In this document: piece by piece, positions 1-13,859 of the stretch
How positions within the stretch are numbered: position 1 is the stretch's first letter
Layout of the letters: each line of letters starts with the position of its first letter
Source of the DNA: Arthrobacter echini
Lineage (GTDB): Bacteria; Actinomycetota; Actinomycetes; Actinomycetales; Micrococcaceae
Assembly: GCF_008107445.1 (NCBI RefSeq)
Contig: NZ_VSLD01000001.1
Span: 1-64,000, forward strand
Length of the DNA: 64,000 nt
Direction: 5' to 3'
Translations under genes and position numbers: made by a program
The notes under the pieces: generated by a model
The model's database searches: none
The model's input: the letters and a program-made list of their open reading frames with translations, nothing else
Told to the model about the DNA's origin: nothing

Positions 1-125
1 ATGGGCGGCTTGAGCACCTCCGCGGATCAGCCCTCGGCTTCCGGAACCTCGCCAACTACATCGCCCGATCCCTGCTCGAATCAGGCGGATTCAGACCCGT
101 CCTACACCCTGGTTCGTGAAGAGCC
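1..125 (+). mobile_element. 3' end of an ISL3-family insertion sequence (cut by window edge)
   Basis: The last 38 codons of an ISL3 transposase run from base 3 to the TGA at 117-119. The end GAAGAGCC at 118-125 is the complement of GGCTCTTC, which opens the other ISL3 element at 11825, so 125 is taken as the right terminal base. As is common in this family, the right inverted repeat overlaps the transposase stop codon. Whether the copy is complete upstream cannot be seen. The 8 bp next to the end (126-133) do not match the 8 bp before 11825, so the two ends do not form one simple insertion. Confidence 0.75.
3..119 (+). CDS. ISL3-family transposase, C-terminal fragment (partial, runs off the left edge)
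   Basis: Frame 3 translates to a 38-residue tail containing LRGSALGFRN and NYIARSLLE, the strongly conserved C-terminus of actinobacterial ISL3 transposases, and ends GFRPVLHPGS. The N-terminal and DDE catalytic parts lie outside the window. It is on the same strand as the N-terminal ISL3 fragment at 11949. The two could be separate direct copies, or parts of one element separated by recombination; only the upstream sequence can decide. Confidence 0.75.
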   Translation, partial: GRLEHLRGSALGFRNLANYIARSLLESGGFRPVLHPGS

Positions 126-401
126 GCTAAATGTCTACGCTACCGGAAACGGCAGTCGCTAGTAGTTGGTGCGAATGATAACAACCAGCTTACAAATCTA
201 GCAACTCGGTCCTCCGGTGCACCAAAATCAAATTTCTATTACCAGCAGTTTTTGTTGCTCTGCGCTCACCCAAAATATAAAAAAGGACTGATAAACGACG
301 AAGAATGCCTAATCGAGGATTCGTTCAAGCGGGAGAACTCGCTGGAGACGGACAAGCTCCGGTGCAGTAACCAGGCAACCTGCAAGCTGTAGCTTTGTGG
401 C
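126..401. other. AT-rich gap between the IS end and the integrase gene
   Basis: I see no convincing gene. Bases 165-300 are much richer in A and T than anything in the backbone and include an A-rich run near 271-285. For large serine integrases attP normally lies next to the integrase gene, so an att site could lie here, but no repeat is available to prove it. A 21-codon open frame at 304-369 has no ribosome binding site and is not called. Confidence 0.4.
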
Positions 402-1928
402 ATGAGCTCCGAAGAACGCCGCGCGGCCATTTACCTGCGCATCTCCCAGGACCGCGAGAACACACGACTCGGCGTAGACCGGCACCGCGAAGACGCCGAA
501 GCGCTCATCGCAGCCCGAAGGTGGATCTCCGCGGGCATCTACGAAGACAATGACCTCTCCGGCAAGGGCCACAAGAAACGTCCCGCCTTCGAACGGCTCC
601 TCGAAGACATTGGGGCGGGCCTCATCGACGTCGTTGTCGCCCAGGAGTGGCCTCGTCTGGAACGCAACCGGATAGACGGCGTTCGAATCATCGAGGCGGC
701 ACAACGTGGCCATGTCCTGCTGACCTTCGCTAAGGGGTCGGACATTGACTGCACGACCGCGGCTGGCAGGCTGAGCGCCGACATGTTCTCGGCTATCGCC
801 CGCAACGAAATCGAAGTCAAGGCCGAACGGCAATCACGGGCACAACGCCAGCGCGCCGAGCAAGGAAGACCTCCGAAGGGTGTACGTCCGCTCGGCTACG
901 CCAGCAACGGTGACGTGATCAAAGATGAGGCGGAGGCTGTTGAGAGAATCTACATAGCGTTCTCCTCAGGGGCGTCGCTGCGGGCTATCGCCGCGGCACT
1001 GTCCGGCGGTGAAGGAAAGGACCTTCCCAAGATGCCCAATCTCCCGCGGCACAACCGAACCCTGATGATCGAGCGCAACGCACGCCGCTCCGAAGAAGAC
1101 CTCGAGCCACGCCTCGTCCCGACCGACAGTCCCTGGGTATCGTCGACCGTTCTGGGCATTCTAAGGAACCCGCGCTATGCCGGTTACAGTACATACACGC
1201 CGAAGGAGGTGCTCACCAATGGCGACCGGCGGCGATCGTGGCGGGCTCAGATCTTGCGTGACGAGCACGGCGAACCGGTCCTCGGCAGATGGGATCGGAT
1301 CGTAAGTCTCGACGTATGGGAGGCAGTACAGGACCGGCTCGACGACCCGGCGCGTATCACGAACCGGGCAGGGACCGACAGGAAGCACCTTGGCTCAGGC
1401 CTCTACCGGTGCGGGGTGTGTGACAAGCCCGTGAAGGCACAAGGGCTGCGGTACCGGTGTGAAGGCCATGTCTTGCGGTCACGGGCGCAGATCGATGATT
1501 TCGTTGTGGAGACTGTCCGGAGACGGCTCCAACTGCCGGATCTTTACGATCTTCTTCCTTCCGCAGATGAGCCGCGGATGCGAGAGATCAAAGGGGAGAT
1601 CGACGACCGCCGAGCCAGGCTTCACAGAGCGCAGCGCGATTACGATGACGAACTTATCGAGGGCCTCGACCTCAAGCGCATCCGGGACCGTGAGAACGCT
1701 GCAATCGATACCTTGGAAGTGGACCGCCTACGACTTTCGTTGGGGATGGCGCACAACAGCGTGCTGGAAGCTAGGGACCCACTGACTGCATTCGACGGAG
1801 GCGATCTAGCTATACGTCGGCAGACTATCGAGATCCTCTGTGAGGTGCATCTCTTGCCGCATCCACGGGGGATCAAAGTATTCAATCCCGATTCGCTAAC
1901 CGTCACCTGGCGACAACCGACGACCTAG
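402..1928 (+). CDS. Large serine recombinase (phage/ICE-type integrase)
   Basis: 508 aa. The N-terminal catalytic domain (about residues 7-150) has the nucleophile serine in AIYLRIS (Ser15) and the ERNRIDG helix region. A recombinase domain follows (about 157-320) with the NPRYAGY motif. A zinc ribbon comes next, with Cys337, Cys340, Cys353 and probably His356, then a coiled-coil stretch (about 395-440) typical of integrases that control direction through a directionality factor. By family it would cut attP and attB through a Ser-DNA bond. It stands at the left end of the module; the small HTH gene downstream is a candidate partner. The ATG at 402 has no clear Shine-Dalgarno, so a leaderless start is possible. 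Confidence 0.88.
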   Translation: MSSEERRAAIYLRISQDRENTRLGVDRHREDAEALIAARRWISAGIYEDNDLSGKGHKKRPAFERLLEDIGAGLIDVVVAQEWPRLERNRIDGVRIIEAAQRGHVLLTFAKGSDIDCTTAAGRLSADMFSAIARNEIEVKAERQSRAQRQRAEQGRPPKGVRPLGYASNGDVIKDEAEAVERIYIAFSSGASLRAIAAALSGGEGKDLPKMPNLPRHNRTLMIERNARRSEEDLEPRLVPTDSPWVSSTVLGILRNPRYAGYSTYTPKEVLTNGDRRRSWRAQILRDEHGEPVLGRWDRIVSLDVWEAVQDRLDDPARITNRAGTDRKHLGSGLYRCGVCDKPVKAQGLRYRCEGHVLRSRAQIDDFVVETVRRRLQLPDLYDLLPSADEPRMREIKGEIDDRRARLHRAQRDYDDELIEGLDLKRIRDRENAAIDTLEVDRLRLSLGMAHNSVLEARDPLTAFDGGDLAIRRQTIEILCEVHLLPHPRGIKVFNPDSLTVTWRQPTT

Positions 1929-2214
1929 TGCAAGACAAACCGACTTTCAGCAATTGATTTAATGTGTCGCCAACAAGCGCTTTAGTGTCACTTGTCTGAC
2001 CACCCGGTCAGATACACCCGACGGAACCACGGGGATGGGATCCCTCCGTCGAGATAGTTCCCACGCTCCAGGCGAGTGCGATCACCAGCGCATAATGAGC
2101 CTGCGAGTCAACTCTGGTGAGGTCGGATCGGCCGAAAGCGATCCTGGCAGGATAGAGCGCGGTAGCGTCCTGCGAGAGGTACAGGTGTTCACTCCTCATG
2201 AGAGGAGCGGGCCC
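1929..2214. promoter_or_regulatory. Intergenic stretch with a short inverted repeat
   Basis: The arms TCTGACC (1995-2001) and GGTCAGA (2006-2012) form a 7-bp hairpin with a 4-nt loop. It could be an operator or recombinase-related site before the HTH-polB operon. An open frame reaches up to 2035, but its first 60 codons lack a ribosome site and look noncoding. Confidence 0.35.
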
Positions 2215-2586
2215 GTGCCTGCCACCCCCCTTGCTCTCCCTCCTTGCCATTCCCTGCAACAAGCTATTGAACCGGACCGCGAAGGACGCTCACCCTCTAC
2301 TCCCCCAGTTCGTTTGTCCCTGAGCGACGCTGCTGAACGCGGATATGGCGGGTACTCAACCCTCCGCAAAAAGATCTCTTCCGGTGAGCTTCCCGCAGAG
2401 CGCGTCGGACGACGCTATCTGATCCTCGAGACCGATCTTGAGGCCCTGCTCGCGCCCGTTGTAGGCCGTCCCACCGAGCACGCCTCCGTCAGCGCGGCGA
2501 TCGACCGGATTGTTGCTTCTGCCCCGCGGCTCTCGAAGGAACAGCGTGAGCGCCTCGCTACTCTCCTCGGCGGAGGTGCAGCATGA
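2215..2586 (+). CDS. Small excisionase-like helix-turn-helix protein
   Basis: 123 aa from GTG 2215, chosen because AGAGGAGCGG lies just upstream at a good distance; the frame opens at 2035, but that part lacks a ribosome site. The middle (LSLSDAAERG to the LILETDLEALL region, about residues 33-76) resembles a MerR/excisionase-type HTH in which a short wing contains the GRRY motif. The C-terminal helix has the SKEQRERLATLL stretch. Its stop overlaps the polB start by 4 bp, so the two are probably translationally coupled. It may be the recombination directionality factor for the integrase or a regulator or initiator for the polymerase; the sequence does not separate these. Confidence 0.6.
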   Translation: MPATPLALPPCHSLQQAIEPDREGRSPSTPPVRLSLSDAAERGYGGYSTLRKKISSGELPAERVGRRYLILETDLEALLAPVVGRPTEHASVSAAIDRIVASAPRLSKEQRERLATLLGGGAA

Positions 2587-5582
2587 ACGCCCCAGTGCCT
2601 GCAGGTTGGTCGAGCCACGAGATCAAAGACGGCGGCGGCCGCTTCCAGGTACTCGTGCGGCGCACCCCACGCAGGGGCTCCTTCGCCGCACACCTGCCTC
2701 CGAAGATTGCAGCTCTTTCCGCTCAGAACCGCTCAATTGCTCCGGGTAGTTTGAAAGTGCCCGGAGCAATCGAGCGCACGGGAGCGGATGACTTCCGCAG
2801 AATTCCAGGATTTTCATCACGGGGTCATAAGCCCCCTATGGGCCCCCCGAGCTACGGTGCTCTGACCCCGTCGCCCCCTCAGCGTCTTGCAGGGGTTGTG
2901 CCGGGGACCCCGATCTCTTTTGGCGACCTGACATCGGTGCGTGCCATGGGCACCGAACGCGCCGGGATCGTCCTCGGGTTCGACACCGAGTTCACGACCA
3001 CCTCCTTCGGCACGCGCGTCATCGACTCGTACCAGTTTGCAGTGCCAGAGATCTTCAATCCCGCCCTCATGGTCGAGGTTGTAATCTTGCCTCTCGATGA
3101 ACACCGCATCAGCCTCCACACGGCTTTGTGGGAGGTCGTGGTTGCCGCCCGCCTCTGGCACTCCTCGCTCGTACCCGATGGTGTCGACGATCGCGGGGTG
3201 CGCCGCGACATGGTGCTCGATCAGCCTCCCACCAGAGCGGCCAGGGATGCCGCCATGGCCTGGTCTGCGGATACCCGTAACTGGGAAGCTCGTGCAGCGG
3301 CTCTGGCGCCGTGGCGGGTTCCGATCGTGCTCGCGACCCACTACGGCTCGGCCGACCTCACTGCCTTTCGCGGTGGCGCGTACGTTACAGACCATCTCAC
3401 CCGGCTGACCTCGGCTGCCGGAGGTCTGGTAACGCTCCTTCCATTCCGCCTCCAGCAGGGCGACGGCGAGGGCGACTGGTGGCGGGTGCTGTCCGTAACC
3501 GTCCGCGACACCATGGGCCAGACCCCTGCAGGGAAGAAGAGCCTGACAGTGATCGGTCCCGCATGCGACAACCCCAAGCTAGAGGTCCCAGACGGGTGGA
3601 TCTCCAACATGACTGGCTACCGAGCCGCCCACCTAGGTGATTTCCTCGAGTACGGCATTAACGACGCCGTCATCGTCGTCGAGTACCTTGCACGACTTTG
3701 GGGCGATGGTGTTATCCCTCCGATCACCTTAAGCGGTGGGGCCGCCGCTTCCCTCGTCTCGTCGGGGTTGGACTACTTCGGTGTTCGATCTCCTAAATAC
3801 TTCCGGCTAACTTTCGCCGGAATCGTTCAAGACGACGGCGTTGAGGTCGTTGATGAAGATGATCAGCTGAGCTTCTACGGCAAACGATTCCGTCGCCCGG
3901 TTGACGGTGCAGCCGACCAACTAATGTCTGCTTTCGCCAAGGCGTACCACGGCGGTCTCAATGCGTGCAGTGCGCCGGGCTACTACCCCCACCCGACCGT
4001 TGACATTGACGCACAGAATGCTTACCCAACCGCAATGGCGCTCGTCCATGACCTTGATTGGGAAGCCGGTGTCATCGACGCCGTCGTGAACAAGCGCCCG
4101 CTGACCCTCGCGGACGTGCCGGAGCCGATAACTCCGATCGTCGCTTTCGTGTCCTTCATCTTCCCCCCGGGTGTTGCTTTTCCAACCTTGCCGATCGTCG
4201 CCGACAACACGCTCATCTACCCGCAGACAAGCGAGGGAACCGCCGGCACGTGGGCATGCGGTCCCGAGCTGTGGCTCGCACTCACGCTCGGTGCCGAGGT
4301 CTTCTGCCAAATCGGGTACACCGCGGTGACTCTCACCCGGCCGGACGGAACTCCTTCCCGGGTCCTGCGGTACGGAGTGAAGCAGCTCATCGACGACCGC
4401 AACACCGCCAAGCACCTCTTCGGTGACAAGTCCATCGAAGAACAGACCCTTAAAACAGCGGCGAGCTCCGTCTACGGCAAGACCGCTCAAGACGTCGCTG
4501 AGCAGCGCGCATGGAACGCCCATGAACAACAGATGGACAGTGTCGGAGGGTCGGCGATTACCAGCCCTTACCACGCGGCCACGTCGACGAGTCTCGTCCG
4601 GGCGCAGTTGCTCGCGACGATGAACCAGATCACCGAGCGCAGTGGCCATGTCTACAGCGTGACAACCGACGGGTTCATTACGGGCATGCCCCTCGACGAC
4701 GTCAATGACCTCGACTTGTACGGGCTGGCTGAGCACCTTCGGGAAGCTCGTACAGCCCTGACCGGTAACCCGGCGGTCTGGGAAGCCAAGCACACCCAGG
4801 ACGACCTGGTGAACTTCACGACGCGCGGAAACGTCTCGCTCTCTCCTGGTGGGGTCTGCGCCCATAACGGAATCAAGCGGCCCGCGGGCATCGAGGAGGA
4901 CAGCCCCGAGGACCGGGAGCACCTGCTGACCCTGGTCATCACTCGTACCGGCCGGGTCGACAACGAGTACAAGCGGTTTCCCAGTTTCAGCGACCTTTCG
5001 CGTAAAGACAACCGGAAGGACTTCCTGCCGTCATGGGTCATCGCACCCCGCTCCATGGACTTCGACCTCAAACGTCGCCCTGTCATGAGTTCGATGACTG
5101 CCGAACTGGTCCCCCTGCCCGACGGTTCCCGTCACGAGATGGCCACGTTCACCACCGAGCCGTGGGACACCGTCGAAGAGAGCCTGCGTGCTCGTGAGAT
5201 AGCCCGTGAGATGTCGAAGGCCGGTGGATGCCTGCGAACCGTCGATGAATGGAGGGCGTGGCATCTCAAGTACACGCACGGCAAGGGCCGGCGGATCGTC
5301 ACACCTCAACGCGCCGTACTCCTGAGCATCGTCATGGCGCACCGCCAACGCATCGTCAGCATTCCCGCATTGACCGACCGATCGTCGACTATCGCCGACA
5401 AGATCGCTTGGTTGGCGACGTGGGGACTGGGGACGGTCTCGGAGGGTGACTGGAAGAACGCCCGCCGACCAGAACGCATCTCTCAGATGCTCCCCTTGGA
5501 CTCCCTCGATCCTTATCTCCACCGAATGCTCGCGATGCCCGTTGGAATCACCCCCGGCGATGCTGACCGCTTGCCTTACTAA
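2583..5582 (+). CDS. Family B DNA polymerase of mobile-element type
   Basis: 999 aa. A DnaQ-like 3'-5' exonuclease domain is visible, with Exo I as Asp134-Thr-Glu136, an Exo II-like HYGSADL (Asp258) and Exo III as YGIND (Tyr357, Asp361). The polymerase core has motif A DIDAQNAYP (Asp474), motif B KTAASSVYGK (Lys624, Tyr631, Gly632) and motif C YSVTTDG (Asp696), where Thr694 stands in for the first Asp of the usual DTDS. The first 125 residues are proline-rich and unassigned. The start has a GGAGG site and a 4-bp overlap with the HTH gene. By family it should copy the element's DNA. It could be protein-primed, primer-independent (piPolB-like) or a repair polymerase; no terminal protein is recognised with certainty. 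Confidence 0.8.
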   Translation: MNAPVPAGWSSHEIKDGGGRFQVLVRRTPRRGSFAAHLPPKIAALSAQNRSIAPGSLKVPGAIERTGADDFRRIPGFSSRGHKPPMGPPSYGALTPSPPQRLAGVVPGTPISFGDLTSVRAMGTERAGIVLGFDTEFTTTSFGTRVIDSYQFAVPEIFNPALMVEVVILPLDEHRISLHTALWEVVVAARLWHSSLVPDGVDDRGVRRDMVLDQPPTRAARDAAMAWSADTRNWEARAAALAPWRVPIVLATHYGSADLTAFRGGAYVTDHLTRLTSAAGGLVTLLPFRLQQGDGEGDWWRVLSVTVRDTMGQTPAGKKSLTVIGPACDNPKLEVPDGWISNMTGYRAAHLGDFLEYGINDAVIVVEYLARLWGDGVIPPITLSGGAAASLVSSGLDYFGVRSPKYFRLTFAGIVQDDGVEVVDEDDQLSFYGKRFRRPVDGAADQLMSAFAKAYHGGLNACSAPGYYPHPTVDIDAQNAYPTAMALVHDLDWEAGVIDAVVNKRPLTLADVPEPITPIVAFVSFIFPPGVAFPTLPIVADNTLIYPQTSEGTAGTWACGPELWLALTLGAEVFCQIGYTAVTLTRPDGTPSRVLRYGVKQLIDDRNTAKHLFGDKSIEEQTLKTAASSVYGKTAQDVAEQRAWNAHEQQMDSVGGSAITSPYHAATSTSLVRAQLLATMNQITERSGHVYSVTTDGFITGMPLDDVNDLDLYGLAEHLREARTALTGNPAVWEAKHTQDDLVNFTTRGNVSLSPGGVCAHNGIKRPAGIEEDSPEDREHLLTLVITRTGRVDNEYKRFPSFSDLSRKDNRKDFLPSWVIAPRSMDFDLKRRPVMSSMTAELVPLPDGSRHEMATFTTEPWDTVEESLRAREIAREMSKAGGCLRTVDEWRAWHLKYTHGKGRRIVTPQRAVLLSIVMAHRQRIVSIPALTDRSSTIADKIAWLATWGLGTVSEGDWKNARRPERISQMLPLDSLDPYLHRMLAMPVGITPGDADRLPY

Positions 5583-5663
5583 CAAAGACCCGGACCACCA
5601 CAGTGTGGTCGCCGTCATTGCGGGATCGGCTCCGCACACCATCTGCAACAAAGGATCATTACT

Positions 5664-5972
5664 ATGTCGAACACGATCATGGCCAGCCTCGATGCGGAGA
5701 TCGCGAAGGCCAAGAAGCAGGCCGCGGCCCGTATCGCCAAGCTGAAGCGGGATGCCGCTGCCGAACAGGAAAAGATCGATGCGAAGGTCATCGAGCTGCT
5801 CTGCGAGCAGGAGCCCGCCTTGTATGAAGGTCTTACTCGACAGGCGGTGGGCGCTCTGGCTGCTGGTAAGGCTGCGGGCTCGAAGAATGTCCGCCGCGCC
5901 GCCCCGCTAGAGTCGTCAGGGCCGACGAGCATCAACGACGCTCGTGGGGCGTTTGTGGAGGAAGCACGATGA
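5664..5972 (+). CDS. Small alpha-helical coiled-coil protein between polB and mobC
   Basis: 102 aa. Residues 8-60 are rich in Ala, Lys, Arg and Glu with heptad character (DAEIAKAKKQAAARIAKLKR), and the C-terminal 35 residues look disordered. It has no motif I recognise. Its stop overlaps the start of the MobC-like gene (ATGA), which places it in the mobilization operon, 81 bp after polB. Possible roles are a relaxosome accessory protein, a DNA-binding partner of the polymerase or, speculatively, a priming protein. No function is claimed. Confidence 0.6.
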   Translation: MSNTIMASLDAEIAKAKKQAAARIAKLKRDAAAEQEKIDAKVIELLCEQEPALYEGLTRQAVGALAAGKAAGSKNVRRAAPLESSGPTSINDARGAFVEEAR

Positions 5973-6553
5973 ACGCCCAGTTCGATGCTTCCTTCCGGGG
6001 GATCGAAGGGGGCGTCGCCCCCTCGCAAGCAGCACCGGAAGACACGAGCGCCAGCGAAGTGTCTGACGGGGCTACTGCTTGCCACTCTTACGTACAGATG
6101 GAACAGCACCCCGACACCCCAAGCAACGCTGGTCGGGGTGCTGTGGACGCTGTGCGTAAGAGTGACGTCGCGAAGCGGCGTACGGGTCGAGCGAAGCTTG
6201 ACGTGGACTTCGGCCACACTACTCTTCCGGCGGTGCGCGCCCGCGCGTACCGCCTCGGGCTTCAGCCCGGAGTGTGGGTGAAGGCCGTTGTCCGGGACGC
6301 GCTTCATGCATCGCGGGCGGACGAGCTGGATGCTGCCGTTGCTGCAGCCCTCATCAATGGCGAGCAGCGAGCTCAGGTATCAGCGGACGTTCGAGAACTG
6401 GCGACACAGATCCGTCCCCTGGCGATCAACGTCAATGATCTCGACCGTCGCGCTCGTGCGGGTGAGGCTGTGTCTCTCGACGCCGACCTGCCCGAGCTGC
6501 TTGCCCTTCTCCGCGATGTCCGCGGGCTGCTCGGTGATCGGAGGGCTACGTGA
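5969..6553 (+). CDS. mobC: MobC-like mobilization (relaxosome accessory) protein
   Basis: 194 aa from ATG 5969, preceded by GGAGGAAG and coupled to the upstream gene. Residues about 70-194 look like bacterial MobC: a basic stretch KRRTGR, a ribbon-helix-helix-like region (LPAVRARAYRLGL, VKAVVRDAL) and a C-terminal helical part with IRPLAINVNDLDRRAR. Residues 1-66 are low complexity and coincide with two inverted repeats, so that part may serve mainly as DNA or RNA structure; a shorter protein starting near 6141-6151 (GTG codons) is possible. In known systems MobC helps the relaxase open oriT. Its stop overlaps the relaxase start (GTGA). Confidence 0.7.
   Translation: MNAQFDASFRGIEGGVAPSQAAPEDTSASEVSDGATACHSYVQMEQHPDTPSNAGRGAVDAVRKSDVAKRRTGRAKLDVDFGHTTLPAVRARAYRLGLQPGVWVKAVVRDALHASRADELDAAVAAALINGEQRAQVSADVRELATQIRPLAINVNDLDRRARAGEAVSLDADLPELLALLRDVRGLLGDRRAT
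6008..6022. repeat. Short GC-rich hairpin at the 5' end of the mobC frame
   Basis: GGGGGC (6008-6013), loop GTC, GCCCCC (6017-6022). It lies about 60 bp upstream of the larger nested repeat and may belong to the same transfer-origin region or control translation of mobC. Confidence 0.5.
6083..6164. other. oriT: Nested inverted repeat, candidate origin of transfer (oriT)
   Basis: The outer arms CACTCTTACG (6083-6092) and CGTAAGAGTG (6155-6164) are perfect. The inner arms CAGCACCCCGAC (6104-6115) and GTCGGGGTGCTG (6132-6143) are also perfect, and exactly 11 nt separate outer from inner arm on each side. Such paired repeats next to mobC and a relaxase gene are typical of oriT regions, but the nick site is not known. 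It lies inside the mobC reading frame (codons 39-66), which is unusual. An RNA structure controlling mobC-mobA translation is the alternative. Confidence 0.55.
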
Positions 6554-7857
6554 GTACGACGCACTACAGCCCGAGCAACAGTGCTGCCGACACCGAGTGG
6601 TACGTCAGAGGGAAAGACAACGCACGAGGTGTGGCGATCACCTGTGACGTTCCTGGTCCACCAGGTGCCTTCGCGGCCCGGGCACGTGCTCTGACGCAGA
6701 ACACCCGTCGCGAGGTCGAGGTCCTGCACTACCGGCAGTCGTTCAGCGACGAGGAGTTCGACCCGAAGCATCCCGACCATGTGCAGCGCGTCAACGACCT
6801 CGGGTATCTGCTTGCCAAGAAGATGCACCCCAACTCGGACGTTCTCGTCGTCACGCACGTCGACGGCCGTGGTGGGAAGGCGCATAACCACATCATCGTG
6901 ATCAATCACGACAATGCCACCGGCAAGGCTCTGTCGCAGTACCGGACGTTCCATGACCGGAAGGCAGGCAACCAGCGCGGCGTGCAGTCCGTCAACGACG
7001 AGCTGATGCTCGAGCACGGACTCTCGGTGGTCAAGCGTGTCGAGCATCAGCCGAAGGACTGGGAACTCCGTCGGGAGGACTTCGATCAACGCTCGCTCGA
7101 CCGCCAGATGGGCGACCGGATGATGGCCGCGCTCGGAGATCCCCGCTCGACGAGCAAGGCGGCGCTCACCGCGGTACTCGACGAGCAGAATCACCTGCCC
7201 GGTGATGATGGGTTGCCGCTGCCAAGAATGCGGTTGCACACCTCGGTCGCCAGGAAGGGCAAGCGCGCCGGGCAAGAAACCTGGACGCTCTACATCGAAG
7301 ACCGACGCGGTGAGACCGGCCGAGCCGAGCGCCGCAAGCGTACATCGGTGCTCTCGGCCGACTTCACTCCGGAGGGCGCACAAGCGTTCTTCGACTACCA
7401 CCAGCAGAACCAGATCCAGAAGGAGCAGGACAATGAGCGCAGCGCTCGAACGGCTGAGGCAGCACGACGCGCAGCAGGTGCCGCCCGCGGAACAGACCGA
7501 GACGATCATGGAAGTGTTGACCTCGATCCTCGCCGCCGTCGAAGCGCAGACCAGGCGTCTCGCGGGACTGGCGGAGCGCCAGGAGAAACTCGCCTCGTAC
7601 GTGAAGACCATGGACGAGGAGTCGAGCGAGCAGATCGAGGGTCTGGAGCAGCGACTCCGGCAGTCGATCACGTCGGTATCCGTGCCTACGCGCAACGACT
7701 CCTCGATGAGCGAGAGCGTGAAGAGCGAGCTGCACGAGATCGGGCGGACGCTGAAGTCGCTCGCCAGCGTGATCGACGGAAAGCAGATCGCCGGCGCCGT
7801 CTCGTCGCTGATGTTCGCGAGGACGCAGATCGAGAGGACGACGGCCTGGAACTCTGA
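6550..7857 (+). CDS. mobA: MOBP-like relaxase / mobilization nuclease
   Basis: 435 aa from GTG 6550, with a GGAGGG site upstream and a 4-bp overlap with mobC. Tyr18 (EWYVRG) is the likely DNA-linking tyrosine, LHYRQSF (about 59-65) matches motif II, and HVDGRGGKAHNH supplies the three-histidine metal site (His103, His112, His114). The relaxase fold ends near residue 290. The remaining C-terminus is Arg/Asp/Glu-rich with a coiled-coil look, and its last 425 nt overlap the mobB-like gene in another frame. It would nick one strand at oriT and pilot it into a recipient, using a helper's conjugation machinery. A primase domain as in RSF1010 MobA is not visible. Confidence 0.85.
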   Translation: MSTTHYSPSNSAADTEWYVRGKDNARGVAITCDVPGPPGAFAARARALTQNTRREVEVLHYRQSFSDEEFDPKHPDHVQRVNDLGYLLAKKMHPNSDVLVVTHVDGRGGKAHNHIIVINHDNATGKALSQYRTFHDRKAGNQRGVQSVNDELMLEHGLSVVKRVEHQPKDWELRREDFDQRSLDRQMGDRMMAALGDPRSTSKAALTAVLDEQNHLPGDDGLPLPRMRLHTSVARKGKRAGQETWTLYIEDRRGETGRAERRKRTSVLSADFTPEGAQAFFDYHQQNQIQKEQDNERSARTAEAARRAAGAARGTDRDDHGSVDLDPRRRRSADQASRGTGGAPGETRLVREDHGRGVERADRGSGAATPAVDHVGIRAYAQRLLDEREREERAARDRADAEVARQRDRRKADRRRRLVADVREDADREDDGLEL

Positions 7858-8344
7858 CCAAGCGAACAACTTCGCCAGGAAGTACCAGCAGACGCTCAAC
7901 GCTGGGGGCAAAGCAATCCAAGCGATGGCCGACCAAGCTGTAATAGCCGTCAAGGAAGCATCCACGTCGGCGGCCAGCGCGGCCTCCCAGCAGATCGAGG
8001 CCACTACCCAACGCGTCGACGCCGCCGGTAAGAGCGCAGCACGGACCATCGAGACAGCCGAGCGCCTGCAGAAGTCCTTGGGGTGGGGCGCAGCGGCTCA
8101 CATGAGCCTTGTTCTGCTCCCCGTGGTCGTGGTGCTGCTCATGGGCGTGCAGACTGTCTGGGCTCTCGTGGTCGGCATCCAGTGGGCGCTGGCTCAGGAC
8201 TGGGAGCTCTGGATGGACATTACCGCCGGGATCGGTCTCGCGGGCCTCGTCACCGGTGCGGGATTCGCATTGTGGCGACTGTCTGTCTGGGTGAAGGCAG
8301 CGCTCGATCGAGCCGTGATGCGATCAGGGAGGAATCGGCGATGA
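7433..8344 (+). CDS. MobB-like coiled-coil membrane protein, overlapping the relaxase gene
   Basis: 303 aa from ATG 7433, which has AGGAG at 7421-7425. The first 142 codons lie in a different frame within the relaxase gene. Residues 20-220 are helical and rich in Ala, Glu and Gln, with coiled-coil segments. Two hydrophobic stretches follow (from MSLVLLPVVVVLLMG and from GIGLAGLVTGAG), so it should be an inner-membrane protein with a large cytoplasmic part. The layout recalls RSF1010, where mobB lies inside mobA and MobB is a membrane protein that stimulates transfer. The stop overlaps the resolvase start (ATGA). Assignment is by position and topology, not clear homology. Confidence 0.72.
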   Translation: MSAALERLRQHDAQQVPPAEQTETIMEVLTSILAAVEAQTRRLAGLAERQEKLASYVKTMDEESSEQIEGLEQRLRQSITSVSVPTRNDSSMSESVKSELHEIGRTLKSLASVIDGKQIAGAVSSLMFARTQIERTTAWNSDQANNFARKYQQTLNAGGKAIQAMADQAVIAVKEASTSAASAASQQIEATTQRVDAAGKSAARTIETAERLQKSLGWGAAAHMSLVLLPVVVVLLMGVQTVWALVVGIQWALAQDWELWMDITAGIGLAGLVTGAGFALWRLSVWVKAALDRAVMRSGRNRR

Positions 8345-8925
8345 AGTACGGCTACACGCGCACGAGCACGAAGGACAAGCAGGACGACGACCTCCAGCGC
8401 CGGGCCCTGGTCCACGCAGGGGTCGCCGAGGGCGCAATCTTCTCAGACCAGGTTTCCGGTTCCAGGGAAGCCAAGACTCGCTCGGGATGGTCGAACCTCG
8501 ATGATCGGCTCTGTGAGGGCGATGAGCTCGTCGTATGGCGCATCGACCGGATCGGGCGTTCCATGATCGCCGTCGTCACGACGGTGAAGGACCTCCTTCA
8601 CCGGGGAATCGAGGTGAGATCCCTATCCGATGGCATCGACCCGTCAACCCGTGAGGGCCGTCTGATGCTCAACCTCATGGCGACCTTCGCCGAGTACGAA
8701 CGAGAGCTCATCCAGGAGCGTGTCCAGGCCGGCGTCAATGCAGCCAGGGCCCGGGGCGTGAAGTTTGGACGCCCTACCCCGGATGCAGAGAAGGTCGCCC
8801 TGAACCTGCGGACGGTCAAGCATCTCATCGAGTCCGAGGGACTCGGGGTCGTCGATGCCACGAGAACCGTCGGATGGTCGAAGGCGACCTACTACCGGCA
8901 CCGGTCGGCCGCCGGAGTCTCTTAA
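8341..8925 (+). CDS. Small serine recombinase (resolvase/invertase family)
   Basis: 194 aa, the normal size for Tn3-type resolvases. The N-terminus GYTRTSTKDKQ carries the nucleophile Ser9; DRIGRSM, EGRLMLNLMATFAEYERELI and the GRPTP hinge follow, then a C-terminal HTH (about 150-190) with WSKATYYRH. ATG 8341 overlaps the previous stop, and (8341-8083) shows the longer open frame is noncoding upstream. It likely resolves multimers or cointegrates of the element or inverts DNA at a res site. The large hairpin just downstream is a possible site but is more like a terminator. It is the second serine recombinase of the element and differs in class from the one at 402. Confidence 0.88.
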   Translation: MKYGYTRTSTKDKQDDDLQRRALVHAGVAEGAIFSDQVSGSREAKTRSGWSNLDDRLCEGDELVVWRIDRIGRSMIAVVTTVKDLLHRGIEVRSLSDGIDPSTREGRLMLNLMATFAEYERELIQERVQAGVNAARARGVKFGRPTPDAEKVALNLRTVKHLIESEGLGVVDATRTVGWSKATYYRHRSAAGVS

Positions 8926-8963
8926 ATCCCACCCTGAGGTCGGGACTTCTGAGACAACATTCC

Positions 8964-9002
8964 GAGACCCGTTCATCGGCGCTACGCCGGTGAACGGGTC
9001 TC
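8964..9002. terminator. 18-bp stem-loop after the mobilization operon
   Basis: GAGACCCGTTCA plus TCGGCG (8964-8981) pairs with CGCCGG plus TGAACGGGTCTC (8985-9002) around a 3-nt loop, with a single G-U pair. There is no clear T run. It probably ends the operon from the HTH gene to the resolvase; a res-like recombination site is the alternative. Confidence 0.6.
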
Positions 9003-9451
9003 GTCTCGTTAAGGAGATGGTTGTTGCGCCTCCGCGCGCCGCGTTTCGAGCCAGACCGCTTAGGTTCACCGAGAACGACAACCTTAGATGGAAAGCGCTG
9101 ATACCGTCAGCGAACTGGCGCTCCCTGAGAGTCCTGGCACAAAGAACACGGGCAGGCACGCCGTAGTGTGAGTGCTCCCCCCCCCCCCTCGCCATGAGCA
9201 GAAAGCGTCACGTCAACGTGGCCGCGTCCCTCGATGCCCCCGAAAGCGAGTTACCTGCACCAGTGCTGTGTTCTACTCGCCGTTCTGGGTACCGCGCCTC
9301 GCGGCGTCCGAGTCCGTGCCCGATGTACCCGTCGTCCTGACGGTCCGTAGCGAAACTATGCCGTCGCACAGATCACCTAGCATCAGAACTGCCAAAATTT
9401 TATTGTGAGGGAGTTCAAGCCCCTGCCTGTCGTACTCGTTCCGACCGAGTC
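9003..9451. other. Gap with a 12-C homopolymer and no clear gene
   Basis: I see no supported gene. Open frames here lack ribosome sites and familiar composition. A run of 12 cytosines lies at 9177-9188, and the stretch from 9380 is AT-rich (AAAATTTTATT near 9394), which may be promoter DNA for the methyltransferase. Confidence 0.4.
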
Positions 9452-10651
9452 ATGCCCGCCTCCCTTCACACCGCCGACGCTGACCGGTCACCTCAAGTTG
9501 TTATGATTACCTCTCGCCAGTACCCCCTCACCGATACGGATGCGCCTTCCCCCATGAGCTCTCGCGCCGAGGATTTTCAGGCGATCACGGCGAGCATCGC
9601 CTCGCACGCCACCACCACGAGAGACCATGCGATCGTGGCCCTGGGAGACTCGCTTGCTCTGCTTGAGCGACTACCCGACGCGTCGGTATCGCTGATACTG
9701 ACTGACCCGCCGTACCACTCCACAAAGAAGGACAACATCTACGGCGACCGATCCTTCATTGAGGATGAGCACTTTCTTGAGTGGATGGAGAAATTTGCTG
9801 TTCAGTGGAAGCGCATCCTCAAGCCAAACGGGACCGCATACGTGTTTTGTTCTGCGCAAATGTCAGCGCGACTCGAAGTGATGATGTCGCAATACTTGCG
9901 TCCCCTGAACCACATCACGTGGACAAAACCGAACGCGCCCGGCTATGACGGGTGGAAGGGCAAGATGAATAAAGAGGCGCTTCGTCGGTGGTATCCCCAC
10001 TCCGAGCGAATCCTCGTATTCGAGCACGGAACGTACGGTGCGGCTACTGCCAGCCGGCGCTCTCCAATGGGGCAATACCTTATGGAAACTCGCAAGAGGG
10101 CCGGGATGTCGGGCCATCGCCTAACTGAGCTTACTGGCGCGTACGGAAAGGTCAACCATGGTGGTGCGGTCGCGAATTGGGAAGCGGGTAGGAATATCCC
10201 AAGTAGGAATCAGTACAAGAAGATGGTCGATGCGCTTGAGGCGACCGGAAAAATTGGGAAGATGCTCGCCTACGAGGACATCATCCGCCCGATGGACGTA
10301 CATGGAGGTGTCGAGTTCACTGACGTCTGGGACTTCATGAGCGTCCGACCGTTCAAGGGCAAGCACCCCGCGGAGAAACCATTAGACATGCTACGACACG
10401 TGGTCTCGGCGTCGAGCTACCCCGGTGACATCGTCCTGGATTGCTTCGCGGGGTCTGGATCCACTGGAGTAGCCGCCCTCCAATTGGGCCGCCGAGCGGT
10501 CTGCATCGACATTGAAGAGCAGTGGACCGATCGCATGAGTCGAGACCTGCGCCATATAGTCGAACTGGAGAGTAGCGGGGATCCTGCCCGTCCAGCAAAT
10601 AGTCGGGGCAGGAACGCCAACCAGTTACATTTCGACAGTCTTTTCGATTAA
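9452..10651 (+). CDS. DNA methyltransferase (N6-adenine or N4-cytosine, beta class) with inserted HTH
   Basis: 399 aa. DPPY (residues 85-88) is the catalytic motif and FAGSGST (332-338) the SAM-binding motif; this order defines the beta class. Between them, about 207-270, is an XRE-like helix-turn-helix segment (METRKRAGMSGHRLTELTG to GAVANWEAG), so the enzyme may also bind its own operator. The start is uncertain: ATG 9452, ATG 9503 and ATG 9554 are all open and none has a clear ribosome site. The gene converges on and overlaps the endonuclease gene by 27 bp, so it is taken as the protective half of a type II restriction-modification system. Confidence 0.85.
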   Translation: MPASLHTADADRSPQVVMITSRQYPLTDTDAPSPMSSRAEDFQAITASIASHATTTRDHAIVALGDSLALLERLPDASVSLILTDPPYHSTKKDNIYGDRSFIEDEHFLEWMEKFAVQWKRILKPNGTAYVFCSAQMSARLEVMMSQYLRPLNHITWTKPNAPGYDGWKGKMNKEALRRWYPHSERILVFEHGTYGAATASRRSPMGQYLMETRKRAGMSGHRLTELTGAYGKVNHGGAVANWEAGRNIPSRNQYKKMVDALEATGKIGKMLAYEDIIRPMDVHGGVEFTDVWDFMSVRPFKGKHPAEKPLDMLRHVVSASSYPGDIVLDCFAGSGSTGVAALQLGRRAVCIDIEEQWTDRMSRDLRHIVELESSGDPARPANSRGRNANQLHFDSLFD

Positions 10652-11680
10652 AGCCTTTCTCTTTTCAAGCTCCTTCCAACTGTGACCGTTATTGTCAACA
10701 ACGCGCTTCATCCACTCAAGGGTCGGAATGATTCCAGCGTCCTTAACAACGATGTTGCAGAAGTGGTGCCCCCAAGACAAGTTGTAAGGCCTGTGCTGTA
10801 GCTTCCCAATCCGTAACTCATCTATGTGGAACAAGCTGAGTTCGGTGACAGTCAAGTCGTAAACCGCTCGACCCTCGGCTTGTTCCTCGCGTTTCAAAAA
10901 TCCAGCAGCCGAGATCTTGTCGAGGCACAGCGGGCAAATAGTATTTCCGTTGTCGTCGATCATTCTAGCCTCGCGTAGCCTACTAAGGTCTAGGAGCCCA
11001 GCAGCCACCGCATTAGCCAATTGAACATTCCTACGGTGCGTTGCACCCGCCTCTGTCATTCCCTCACTTGACATGACTTTGACGGAGTCGTGGGACATCC
11101 AGATTAGGCACTCTAACTGAAGGCGGGCAGCGCCGATCATCTCACTCGACGCATACTCGTATACACGAATTCCGGCACCACGAATACTTGTCTCGTCGAA
11201 CCCATGCACAACGGCCCTGCCATTACTTAGGGCCGTGGTCGAATGAATGCGAGAAAATAACACTCCTCCTAACGGAGCGATTCTGCTGGTGGCTGCAGTG
11301 AACGTCATACCGTTCGGGAGCGTGCTATCTATGGCAGGGGCGAATCTCACTAAGTCGCTTCGTTTCAGGAAGAGTAGTAGAGCGTTCGTGCCGAGCCGGA
11401 GTCCTTGCTGATTTAGTAATTCGTCAGGGTCTGTGGCTGTGAAATACCAGGACGGCTCGACAAGAACAATGAAACCGTTCTCATAGGTCTGGCCCGGCCC
11501 ATATGGTGCCTTACATTGCTCCCAAAAGGCATGGGGGATCAAAACTGTGCTGTTGCGGGAGACTCTGTTTTGATAAATCTCTCGGACGCTAGCGCCGCGG
11601 GTCTGCCCAGTTTTATACAACTTCCTCTCGAGAAGTGGAGGTAATTTTTCTACCCTGTTTCGAGCTGTAATTTGAGACAC
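10625..11680 (-). CDS. Type II restriction endonuclease, HNH fold, BstXI-like
   Basis: 351 aa. The N-terminal 240 residues have no motif I can name. The C-terminus shows a zinc-supported HNH nuclease: CPLC (Cys249, Cys252), HIDELRIGKL (His285), Asn300 in YNLSW, then GHHFCN (His305/306, Cys308). The wording of this block and its pairing with a methyltransferase suggest the BstXI family, but from memory only. It would cut DNA not methylated by the neighbour. Codon use is less GC-biased than in the backbone (many A/T third positions), which suggests recent transfer. Transcription is convergent with the methyltransferase gene. Confidence 0.7.
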   Translation of the reverse strand: MSQITARNRVEKLPPLLERKLYKTGQTRGASVREIYQNRVSRNSTVLIPHAFWEQCKAPYGPGQTYENGFIVLVEPSWYFTATDPDELLNQQGLRLGTNALLLFLKRSDLVRFAPAIDSTLPNGMTFTAATSRIAPLGGVLFSRIHSTTALSNGRAVVHGFDETSIRGAGIRVYEYASSEMIGAARLQLECLIWMSHDSVKVMSSEGMTEAGATHRRNVQLANAVAAGLLDLSRLREARMIDDNGNTICPLCLDKISAAGFLKREEQAEGRAVYDLTVTELSLFHIDELRIGKLQHRPYNLSWGHHFCNIVVKDAGIIPTLEWMKRVVDNNGHSWKELEKRKALIEKTVEM

Positions 11681-11824
11681 GTGTCCAACCTACCGGACGG
11701 CTTGCGGTTAGGACTGACGACTCACGTTGCCAGGCGTGCACAGACTGAGCCTAACCTCCCCTCGGCCGGATTTCGCCCTTCTCGGCGGCGGCGTTCGAGA
11801 CGCGCCCTGGGCGCGCAATCAACC

Positions 11825-12410
11825 GGCTCTTCGGACATCCGGTGGGGGTGAAGGTGTGAGACTCGCCGGTTGAGGTGTGGCGTGAAGGGGTCGAGGTCCC
11901 CGAGGATCAGAAGCGCTAACCACCTGATCCGACCACGAGGACCTCGACGTGTCTCACCCTACTTCGGGGTGCGCTCCCGCGCGCTCTGCTACCTGTCTGT
12001 GCCCCCGCTGCGACCTGCTGGTCGGTCTCGACGGCGTCCACGTCGAGCAAGTCGAGCGTGATGACGGACTGCTGACGGTGATCGTCTCGACGCCGCCGCG
12101 GTTGATGGGCTGCCCGGGGTGCGGTGTCGTCGCTGTCGGTCGTGGCCGGCGCCGGCGGGCCCTGCATGACGTCCCCGGCGTGAGTCGGGTACGGGTGATC
12201 TGGAGGCAACGTATCTGGCGATGCGCCGATACCGACTGCGAGAAGGGGGCGTTCATCGAACAGCTCCCATCTCTGGTCCCGGCGCGCGGTTCGATCACCA
12301 CACGCGCGGTCACCTGGGCGATCGGACAACTCCGCCGGGAACATGCCACGATCGCCGGTCTCGCCCGACAGCTGGGGACCTCATGGAAGACGGTGTGGCG
12401 TGCGGTCGTG
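11825..12410 (+). mobile_element. 5' part of an ISL3-family insertion sequence (truncated)
   Basis: The left inverted repeat starts GGCTCTTCGGACATCCGG at 11825, matching in complement the IS end at 118-125. The transposase follows after a 120-bp leader. Recognisable sequence stops near 12410, after which unrelated repeats and scar DNA follow, so roughly the last two thirds of the element and its right end are missing. Confidence 0.75.
11949..12410 (+). pseudogene. ISL3-family transposase, N-terminal fragment
   Basis: About 153 codons from GTG 11949 are recognisable. The zinc-finger domain of ISL3 transposases is present, with CPRC near 18-21, CPGC (about 55-58) and CADTDC (about 92-97), followed by the HTH region ATIAGLARQLGTSWKTVWRAV. 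Homology ends there. The frame stays open to 12803 but the later codons cross unrelated DNA and the ychF 3' end antisense. With no DDE domain it cannot be an active transposase. It is in the same orientation as the C-terminal fragment at base 3. Confidence 0.75.
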
Positions 12411-12470
12411 CAGTGTCGATCTCGCGCGGTAGTAGAGCGGATAATTTTGGTAGTAGTCGGTATTGGGCTC

Positions 12471-12497
12471 CGTGTGCCCCGTGTGCCCCGTGTGCCC
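12471..12497. repeat. Three tandem copies of a 9-bp unit
   Basis: CGTGTGCCC is repeated three times without a mismatch, in scar DNA between the truncated IS and the tRNA fragment. Confidence 0.85.
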
Positions 12498-12606
12498 CGG
12501 GATCATAGGGAGACGGTGCCTCGGTCGGGCTCGGTGCGCCTAGGGTCCCCAATGAGACTGAGAAGTCCAATGCGCCGTCTTAAAACCCAGTCTGACATGG
12601 GAAGAC

Positions 12607-12640
12607 GAAGGAGCCAGGCGTCTAGACGCCTGGCTCCTTC
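12607..12640. terminator. Perfect 16-bp stem-loop next to the tRNA fragment
   Basis: GAAGGAGCCAGGCGTC (12607-12622), two-base loop TA, GACGCCTGGCTCCTTC (12625-12640). It sits directly downstream of the 3' end of the tRNA-Ala fragment on the minus strand, where a tRNA transcript terminator is expected, so it was probably kept with the tRNA end. Confidence 0.75.
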
Positions 12641-12652
12641 TACCTTTCCTTC

Positions 12653-12700
12653 GGTGGAGGCACGGGGACTCGAACCCCGAACCCCCTGCGTGCAAAGCAA
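12653..12700 (-). pseudogene. 3' fragment of a tRNA-Ala gene (integration or rearrangement scar)
   Basis: Read on the minus strand, it holds an anticodon loop TTTGCAC (anticodon TGC), a variable loop, the T arm CGGGG-TTCGAGT-CCCCG and the acceptor 3' half TGCCTCC followed by ACC. Upstream of the anticodon loop the sequence does not form the matching stem, D arm or 5' acceptor GGAGGCA, so the 5' half is missing. tRNA 3' ends are common attB sites, so this looks like an attachment-site copy left by an element. Confidence 0.7.
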
Positions 12701-12735
12701 TAGCGAACGAGCCTACGGCTCGCGGGCCGGCGCCC

Positions 12736-13845
12736 TCACTTCTTACCCTGGCTCGCAGACGTTATTCCATGACGGAACTCCACTACGTCGCCATCGGACA
12801 TGACGTACTCCTTGCCCTCGATTCGGACCTTGCCGCGGCTCTTCGCCTCGCCCATCGAGCCAGCGTCGATCAGGTCCTCGAAGGACACCACCTCGGCCTT
12901 GATGAAACCGCGCTGGAAGTCGGAGTGGATGACGCCGGCGGCCTCGGGCGCGGTCGCCCCCTTCTTCACCGTCCATGCACGGCTCTCCTTCGGGCCGGCC
13001 GTCAAATACGTCTGCAGACCGAGGGTGTGGAAACCCACGTGGGCCAGCTGGTCAAGACCCGACTGCTCCTGACCGCTCATCTCGAGCATCTCCCGGGCCT
13101 CGGCCTCGTCGAGCTCCACGAGATCCGCTTCGAGCTTGGCGTCGAGGAAGATGGCATCGGCCGGTGCCACGAGCGCGCGCAGCTCCTCCTGACGCTCCGG
13201 GTTGCCGAGCACGGCGTCGTCCACGTTGAACACGTAGATGAAGGGCTTGGCGGTCAGCAGACTGAGCTCGCGCAGGTGCTCCATCTCCAGCTTGTCGCTG
13301 GCCACCGAGGAGAAGATCGTGTCGCCGCGCTCCAGCACCGACTGGGCTGCCTGCATCGCGGCCAGCTGCGCGGCGTCACGCTTCTTGATCTTCACTTCCT
13401 TTTCCACGCGCGGGATGGCTTTCTCCAGCGTCTGCAGATCGGCGAGGATCAGCTCGGTGTTGATGGTCTCCATGTCGGAGCGCGGATCAACCTTGCCGTC
13501 CACGTGGATCACGTCGGGATCGTCGAATACGCGGATCACCTGGGCGATCGCCTCGGCTTCCCGGATGTTGGCGAGGAACTGGTTGCCAAGCCCTTCCCCC
13601 TCGGACGCGCCCTTGACGATGCCAGCGATGTCCACGAAGGACACGGTGGCCGGCAGGATCTGCTTGGACCCGAAGACCTCGGCGAGCTGCGCGAGGCGGG
13701 GATCGGGCAGATTGACCACGCCGACATTCGGCTCGATCGTGGCGAACGGATAGTTCGCCGCCAGCACGTTGTTGCGCGTCAGCGCGTTGAAAAGGGTTGA
13801 TTTGCCGACGTTGGGCAGTCCGACGATGCCGATAGTAAGAGCCAC
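12736..13845 (-). CDS. ychF: YchF/Ola1-type ribosome-binding ATPase
   Basis: 369 aa from GTG 13845; a TAGACT hexamer 8 nt upstream suggests a leaderless start, and TTG 13854 is an alternative. The G1 motif GLPNVGKST and [17 protein letters not shown] (G3) identify the Obg-family GTPase fold. A coiled-coil insertion (about 130-200) and a C-terminal TGS domain ([11 protein letters not shown] to DGDVVEF) complete YchF. The protein binds ribosomes and hydrolyses ATP. The C-terminus departs from the family after EFR: where homologs I recall end in about FNV, this one adds the tail [11 protein letters not shown] just before the accessory DNA, which suggests the 3' end was rewritten by a rearrangement. 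Confidence 0.93.
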
Positions 13846-13853
13846 GGGAGACA

Positions 13854-13859
13854 AGTCTA
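13854..13859 (-). promoter_or_regulatory. -10 element TAGACT for ychF (leaderless start)
   Basis: TAGACT on the minus strand, 8 nt before GTG 13845. There is no Shine-Dalgarno, so transcription probably starts at or next to the start codon. Confidence 0.5.

Follow-up and report, generated by a model that had tools for sequence, protein, structure and literature searches.

A serine-integrase element inserted in ychF of Arthrobacter echini is probably an integrative and mobilizable pipolin

Introduction

Pipolins, elements with a primer-independent family B DNA polymerase (piPolB), are reportedly defence islands. The polymerase itself primes in vitro, and we know of no account of which step of the element's life needs piPolB. 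Circular-plasmid pipolins occur in Staphylococcus epidermidis, Lactobacillus fermentum and others; they carry relaxases and resolvases, and their integrase has often been lost (PMC9710591). Integrated pipolins use tyrosine recombinases (PMC7385651). Published putative relaxases of integrative and mobilizable elements (IMEs) also include PF01719 proteins that have a helicase domain (PMC5704250). Here, we analyzed a stretch of 64,000 nucleotides from Arthrobacter echini (contig NZ_VSLD01000001.1, positions 1 to 64,000; hereafter the window), which carries an element inserted in the gene ychF that joins a family B polymerase (PolB) to a large serine integrase and a mobilization (mob) operon.

The window element shares features with each of these systems and with casposons. 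It resembles plasmidic pipolins in its piPolB-type PolB (18-26% identity) and its relaxase and recombinase genes, and restriction-modification (R-M) genes are present on plasmid pLME300 as well; unlike these plasmids, which are circular and have no annotated integrase, it is integrated at ychF with a large serine integrase. With integrated pipolins of the Escherichia coli type it has in common the PolB, attachment (att) sites, and excisionase and R-M genes as frequent features (PMC7385651, PMC9710591), but it has a serine integrase where those elements rely on tyrosine recombinases, a protein-coding target where those of E. coli use a tRNA site, and a mob operon in addition. IMEs with Rep proteins likewise combine an integrase and a relaxase with no secretion gene seen (the left part of the window element being out of view), but the window element has a piPolB in the Rep slot. 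Casposons, finally, are also integrated elements with a family B polymerase; in contrast, the window element has no Cas1 among the 10 proteins scanned, as a sequence-only reading of the window had noted, and its PolB is without the first Asp of motif C.

Results

One module joins integration, polymerase and mobilization genes

Window base 1 is the first base of the 963,665-base contig C15 in a genome of 3.16 Mb (G000; G-numbers denote genomes, L-numbers loci and C-numbers contigs). Because the contig begins there, it lacks the left part of the element, whose left end lies off the contig. The core (402-8925) is encoded entirely on the plus strand. It comprises a large serine integrase (402-1928), an excisionase-type helix-turn-helix (HTH) protein (2260-2586, start approximate), polB (2583-5582), a small charged, by eye coiled-coil-like (cc) protein that is conserved between polB and mobC (5664-5972), a MobC-like relaxosome protein (5969-6553), a relaxase with a MobA/VirD2 nuclease domain (6550-7857; PF03432, E 7e-13), a MobB-like gene (7433-8344) and a small serine resolvase (8341-8925; PF00239, E 3e-36). 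A BstXI-type R-M pair comes after this core. The MobC-like and MobB-like genes are named by position: the former had no match in Pfam or NCBIfam (an annotated MobC stands before the relaxase in the comparison locus L018), and the latter, 65-67% identical in L001, L002 and L015, had weak matches that all fell below the cut-offs. No coupling or secretion protein was matched among the 10 window proteins scanned, which come from the part of the element that can be seen.

From the HTH gene to the resolvase, four-base overlaps join most neighbors: ATGA at HTH-polB, cc-mobC and mobB-resolvase, and GTGA at mobC-relaxase. The exceptions are polB and the cc gene, which lie 81 bases apart, and the relaxase and mobB, which overlap by 425 nt with no start/stop overlap, mobB having its 5' part inside the relaxase gene in another reading frame. 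The sequence-only reading had proposed that integrase, HTH protein, PolB, relaxase operon, resolvase and R-M pair form one module, with such overlaps at HTH-polB and from the cc gene to the resolvase; gene calls, profile matches and overlaps confirmed the module, and the chain holds at every proposed joint but relaxase-mobB. The G+C content is 0.627 over 384-8950 vs 0.696 over 13000-64000. A near-perfect hairpin past the resolvase (8963-9003, plus strand), terminator-like by eye, is common to the window and L015.

The polymerase has the motif C of primer-independent enzymes

The 999-aa product of polB retains the PolB motifs: Exo I (D134/E136), motif A (D474/D476), motif B (K624-G632) and motif C (T695-D696-G697), the last without its first Asp. 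We aligned first 14 and later 21 PolBs. Motif C reads TDG, with the first Asp missing, in 21/21, where phi29 and PRD1 have DTD; the Exo I D-x-E, the proofreading motif, is likewise kept in 21/21. The absence of this Asp is a trait of primer-independent PolBs, although archaeal B2, bacterial G2 and PolB_SITDG enzymes are also without it (PMC7544198). By motif C, the polymerase is assigned to the primer-independent type, and it would be expected to prime.

No Pfam or NCBIfam model matched the PolB, phrog_11768 (DNA polymerase) matched with E 4e-5, and comparison of a profile of the PolB set gave the PRD1 and phi29 polymerases. In the Protein Data Bank there was no phmmer match, and profile matches were weak, the best (E 0.009) being DNA polymerase alpha. 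Close PolB homologues occur in Sinomonas humi and Arthrobacter gandavensis, and no relative was found in phage records or viral contigs.

A tblastn search with the PolB returned 46 plasmid records (Pseudosulfitobacter 30, Staphylococcus 10, Fusobacterium 5, Helicobacter 1), none of which (0/46) covered at least 80% of the protein in a single place. The S. epidermidis plasmid pSE-12228-03 matched with E 5e-30, and its PolB, used as a query, found L. fermentum pLME300 with E 6e-22; we take both plasmids as examples of the published group, for which PMC9710591 names the two species as hosts but not these plasmids. On the Staphylococcus circles, of 7.8-8.8 kb, polB is accompanied by a recombinase gene and by one for a relaxase or a mobilization protein; p3GD01 has an annotated MobC. 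These plasmids agree with the published plasmidic pipolins with relaxases (PMC9710591), and the union of PolB and mob operon, of which the sequence-only reading knew no other case, was therefore already known.

The element is inserted at the 3' end of ychF

The right end of the element is the att core at 12773-12788, within the 3' end of ychF (12736-13854, minus strand); together with its arm (12752-12772) it makes up the att site at 12752-12788. The last codons of ychF have been replaced and the FNV end lost: ychF of close relatives (L045-L047) ends in GDVVEFRFNV, whereas the window gene has another tail. A replaced tail was present in 8/8 polB genomes of the family and in G545; in G439, G469 and G591 ychF is without such a tail (G648, G632 and G365 lie outside this comparison). 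As a control, we examined 36 further genomes of the same genus in which ychF was matched. In 34 of these the match stops at the junction (part of the 34 were searched for polB), and in two, G203 and G145, both without polB, it continues into the tail; their tails may mark other elements, or scars, that share this att specificity.

Allowing up to four mismatches (two in the window's own genome), we located the displaced VEFRFNV-type end of ychF beside the element in G080, G243, G185, G174, G251 and G545, the last three having ychF on a different contig from the element. In the own genome the displaced end lies on contig C40 (164793-164812). DNA of C40 at 4.5-7.4 kb from it is 91-93% identical to the sequence downstream of ychF in G057, and C40 therefore carries the other flank. 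Both att sites stand on one contig in relatives only, bounding islands of ~23.3 kb (G080), ~16.8 kb (G243) and ~17.7 kb (G185). The two cores of G080 have ACGTGGTGGAGTTCCG in common, 16 identical bases, and by eye its outer arms form inverted repeats at 16/18 positions, which we take to be the look of a serine-integrase attP. At the level of sequence, these comparisons show an exchange of the ychF tail. We also observed a second att site resembling a ychF end at position 5746 of L090 (G000:C40:156000-171551), on the minus strand and 3 kb from the displaced ychF end.

The limits proposed from the letters alone, 126 and 11824, turned out to be the edges of two ISL3 copies (edges read in the sequence, ISL3 by Pfam) and not element termini. 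The left copy is the 3' end of an ISL3-family insertion sequence (IS) at 1-125 on the plus strand, of which bases 3-108 match L046 4990-5095 at 87%, in an open reading frame (ORF) with DDE_Tnp_ISL3 at E 3e-49. The right copy (11826-12430, plus strand, ends by eye) is a truncated 5' part with HTH_Tnp_ISL3 at E 5e-11. Adjoining the att site is a 3' fragment of tRNA-Ala(TGC) (12642-12699, minus strand), a 93% match to G000:C15:769547-769604, which ARAGORN calls tRNA-Ala(tgc) and which lies ~757 kb away on the same contig.

A serine integrase is the evident candidate recombinase

The integrase matched PF00239 (E 3.6e-24), PF07508 (E 7.5e-13) and the phrog_95 integrases (E 5e-82); among the matches listed, annotated phage integrases were 30-31% identical over 97-100%. 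PF07508 occurs once each in G000, G080, G185 and G243, always inside the element (G174 has 6 matches and G197 has 4), and in the six genomes all matches to PF00589, the tyrosine recombinase family, fall outside the islands read, in keeping with the absence of a tyrosine integrase that the earlier reading had noted. Since PF07508 lies within the element and PF00589 outside, the serine integrase is the sole evident candidate for insertion into ychF, a role predicted here from domain content. The HTH protein (TIGR01764, 33.4 bits, cut-off 28.8; HTH_17) is a possible recombination directionality factor and/or regulator.

The ORF of the HTH gene opens at 2035, yet its first ~75 codons overlie a conserved noncoding block, and a start at ~2260 is more likely. 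The block (2003-2240, plus strand), upstream of HTH-polB, is 84-89% identical to three relatives, and pairwise identity is 81-89% across four genera (window 2003-2240, L001 9470-9720, L002 9470-9715, L015 8190-8440). It could be a leader RNA or an origin. A -10-like box (by eye) precedes it, and unrelated blocks occupy the same place in other elements, some after sigma70-like promoters. A structured RNA upstream of HTH-polB was considered and rejected: plus-strand z-scores in 14 elements ran from 0.71 to -3.72, a fold not clearly beyond that of 48 coding controls (mean -0.87, sd 1.73, lowest -9.45). Among four sequences, two-sided change was seen in just 2/77 base pairs, and Rfam gave no match at gathering score in six loci; elsewhere in window 1-13000 it gave a weak microRNA-family match. 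The conservation of the block is unaffected by this rejection. A direct-repeat search near the integrase found no element ends because the true ends are kilobases away. Near the integrase of three type I relatives (layouts defined below) lie genes with repeated RxILAARLKxxLDxxxGRxTxPxV-like motifs, by eye (L075 5639-7355, L001 5665-7153, L015 4826-5667); the one examined had no Pfam match.

The slot of polB is shared with other replication genes

We found polB in 8/295 genomes of the family, in 9/396 of the order (two of them counted already) and in 1/396 of the phylum, the latter being the own genome; genus searches (4/27 and 3/38) yielded no additional genomes. This makes 15 polB genomes, including G151, with only the last 96 PolB residues. 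A relaxase follows polB in 14/15, G545 having none in the 20 kb read; thus polB and the mob genes do occur together elsewhere, which speaks against the accident of recombination that the earlier reading had allowed for. The order hth-polB-cc-mobC-relaxase is kept in 7/7 relatives, with polB truncated in L015 and, in L012, the resolvase placed before cc and no mobB match. In the type I layout (window, L001, L002, L015) the integrase precedes the HTH gene; type II elements (L011-L014) encode it at their far side on the other strand and have an ardA gene (Pfam for L011, by eye for the others). L015 (G151:C2) appears as a decayed type I element with fragmented integrase and resolvase and near-complete mob genes. 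The 9605-base contig of G174, read as a circle, had no terminal overlap of 15-299 bases.

The relaxase family is present in 28/295 genomes of the family, 8 of them with polB. We read 13 loci without polB, from 12 of the 20 polB-less genomes plus a second locus of G251. In 9/13, a Rep gene stands directly before mobC. The three Rep genes scanned have PF01719 (Rep_OBD) and a PF00910 helicase, and the other six are 87-99.8% identical to one of these (tblastn). All nine loci carry a serine integrase, ~25-33% identical to the window's and the type II integrase. Consequently, the mob operon, as judged from gene content, is one that also travels with other replication genes. Since the position of polB is taken by an HUH Rep-helicase gene in these 9/13 loci, the simplest reading suggests that several replication genes, piPolB among them, can be exchanged for one another there. 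The relaxase of G104 is 83% identical to that of the window, and the slot in this genome holds a gene with no Pfam match and a weakly PrimPol-like gene (E 0.0078, under the cut-off); L126, L131 and L132 had no replication gene in the scanned part. The nine loci (L121-L125, L127-L130) form a same-family sister group that has no polB and in which the Rep-helicase gene is found together with a serine integrase gene and a related mob operon.

Defence genes lie between the core and ychF

We scanned the cargo of six islands, G251 and G151 being left out, and five of the six have R-M or anti-phage genes between core and ychF. In the window these are an N6/N4 DNA methyltransferase of a type II R-M system (9452-10651, plus strand; PF01555, E 4e-42; MTase_II, E 3.5e-139) and a BstXI-type restriction endonuclease (10625-11680, minus strand; PF09552, E 4e-122), followed by the ISL3 and tRNA remnants. 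Of the other islands, G080 carries GajA/GajB and a type IIG R-M, and G185 has a DrmD-like helicase besides a type III R-M; the cargo is a Bpu10I-type enzyme in G243 and a type I R-M operon in G174. In G197, the gene adjoining ychF encodes a DUF3644 protein.

Discussion

Our analysis indicates that the window element is probably a pipolin of the integrative and mobilizable kind, equipped with a serine integrase. In the model that we propose, the serine integrase and the excisionase-type HTH protein would excise the element as a circle, as their families and the att sites suggest. The relaxase, with its MobC-like and MobB-like partners, would nick an origin of transfer (oriT), and the helper secretion system of another element would then move one strand into the recipient, as expected from a relaxase with no secretion genes in the part seen. 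The piPolB may start chains unaided, making the complementary strand and/or copying the circle instead of a Rep, as its motif and its slot suggest; the resolvase would resolve multimers. Finally, the integrase would re-insert the circle at ychF, which would gain a short tail from the att arm.

Several observations weigh against this interpretation. Excision, transfer, replication and priming are all inferred, and none was observed. The relaxase family is found in 20 genomes without polB, and on pLME300 and the Fusobacterium plasmid pSB006B such a PolB is accompanied by an annotated replication initiation protein. The PolB tree does not set these polymerases apart from protein-primed ones, as phi29 and PRD1 fall among the plasmid PolBs (support 48; E. 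coli piPolB was not among the sequences), and the AlphaFold model of the PolB, made with three close sequences as input, had a predicted local distance difference test (pLDDT) score of 30.5 and no usable fold. In the regions of G197 and G151 that were read, no displaced ychF end turned up. In the own genome, the att arm on C40 is unlike that of the window element; because of this mismatch and the second att-like site on the same contig, several elements may be stacked at ychF.

Two of these points, the dispensability of polB for mobilization in 20/28 relaxase genomes and the initiators of the two plasmids, would also fit an ordinary IME that is replicated by its relaxase or by host proteins, with piPolB as cargo (e.g. 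a repair or defence polymerase) placed near the mob genes by accident. We consider this unlikely: the polB slot is the Rep slot in 9/13 related loci, the relaxase comes after polB in 14/15 genomes, and p3GD01, pHD104-2_2 and pSE-12228-03 carry polB (pHD104-2_2 by tblastn only) and have no rep annotated in their incomplete gene tables. A protein-primed, self-replicating element of the casposon or linear-plasmid kind would account for the profile similarity to PRD1 (probability 96) and phi29 (89) and for the position of both in the tree, yet it is very improbable, given the lack of Cas1 among the 10 window proteins scanned, a motif C without its first Asp and plasmid relatives that are recorded as circular; no search was aimed at terminal proteins or terminal repeats. 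Least credible is a composite transposon, in which the two ISL3 copies would have moved a segment that is no element by itself. Two same-orientation ISL3 ends do flank 126-11825, but L001 and L002 share the core (window 384-8938) with no IS matches, and the junction with ychF is found beyond the right copy; the relatives have already largely refuted this reading.

Returning to the integrative and mobilizable pipolin, the pairing of a PolB with a relaxase has precedents, and it is the integration, the serine integrase and the ychF site that set this element apart. Where the sequence-only reading had suspected a new type of self-replicating mobilizable element, we see a variant of the pipolin kind: the combination of known parts with an interchangeable copying gene looks like a new variant, and we make no claim that it is the first integrated pipolin to be reported with a mob operon.

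More tentatively, we hypothesize that a single actinobacterial IME mob operon is served by replication genes that can stand in for one another (piPolB, HUH Rep-helicase, perhaps PrimPol), and that piPolB is a true initiator, priming the transferred strand and the circle without a Rep or host primase; this stronger proposal is plausible, though somewhat less likely than not. If true, it would mean plasmid replication without an origin-nicking initiator. The islands with both att sites (G080, G243, G185) supply the exact DNA for asking whether excision from ychF occurs and whether it depends on polB, and related mob operons with different replication genes in one slot amount to a natural swap experiment.

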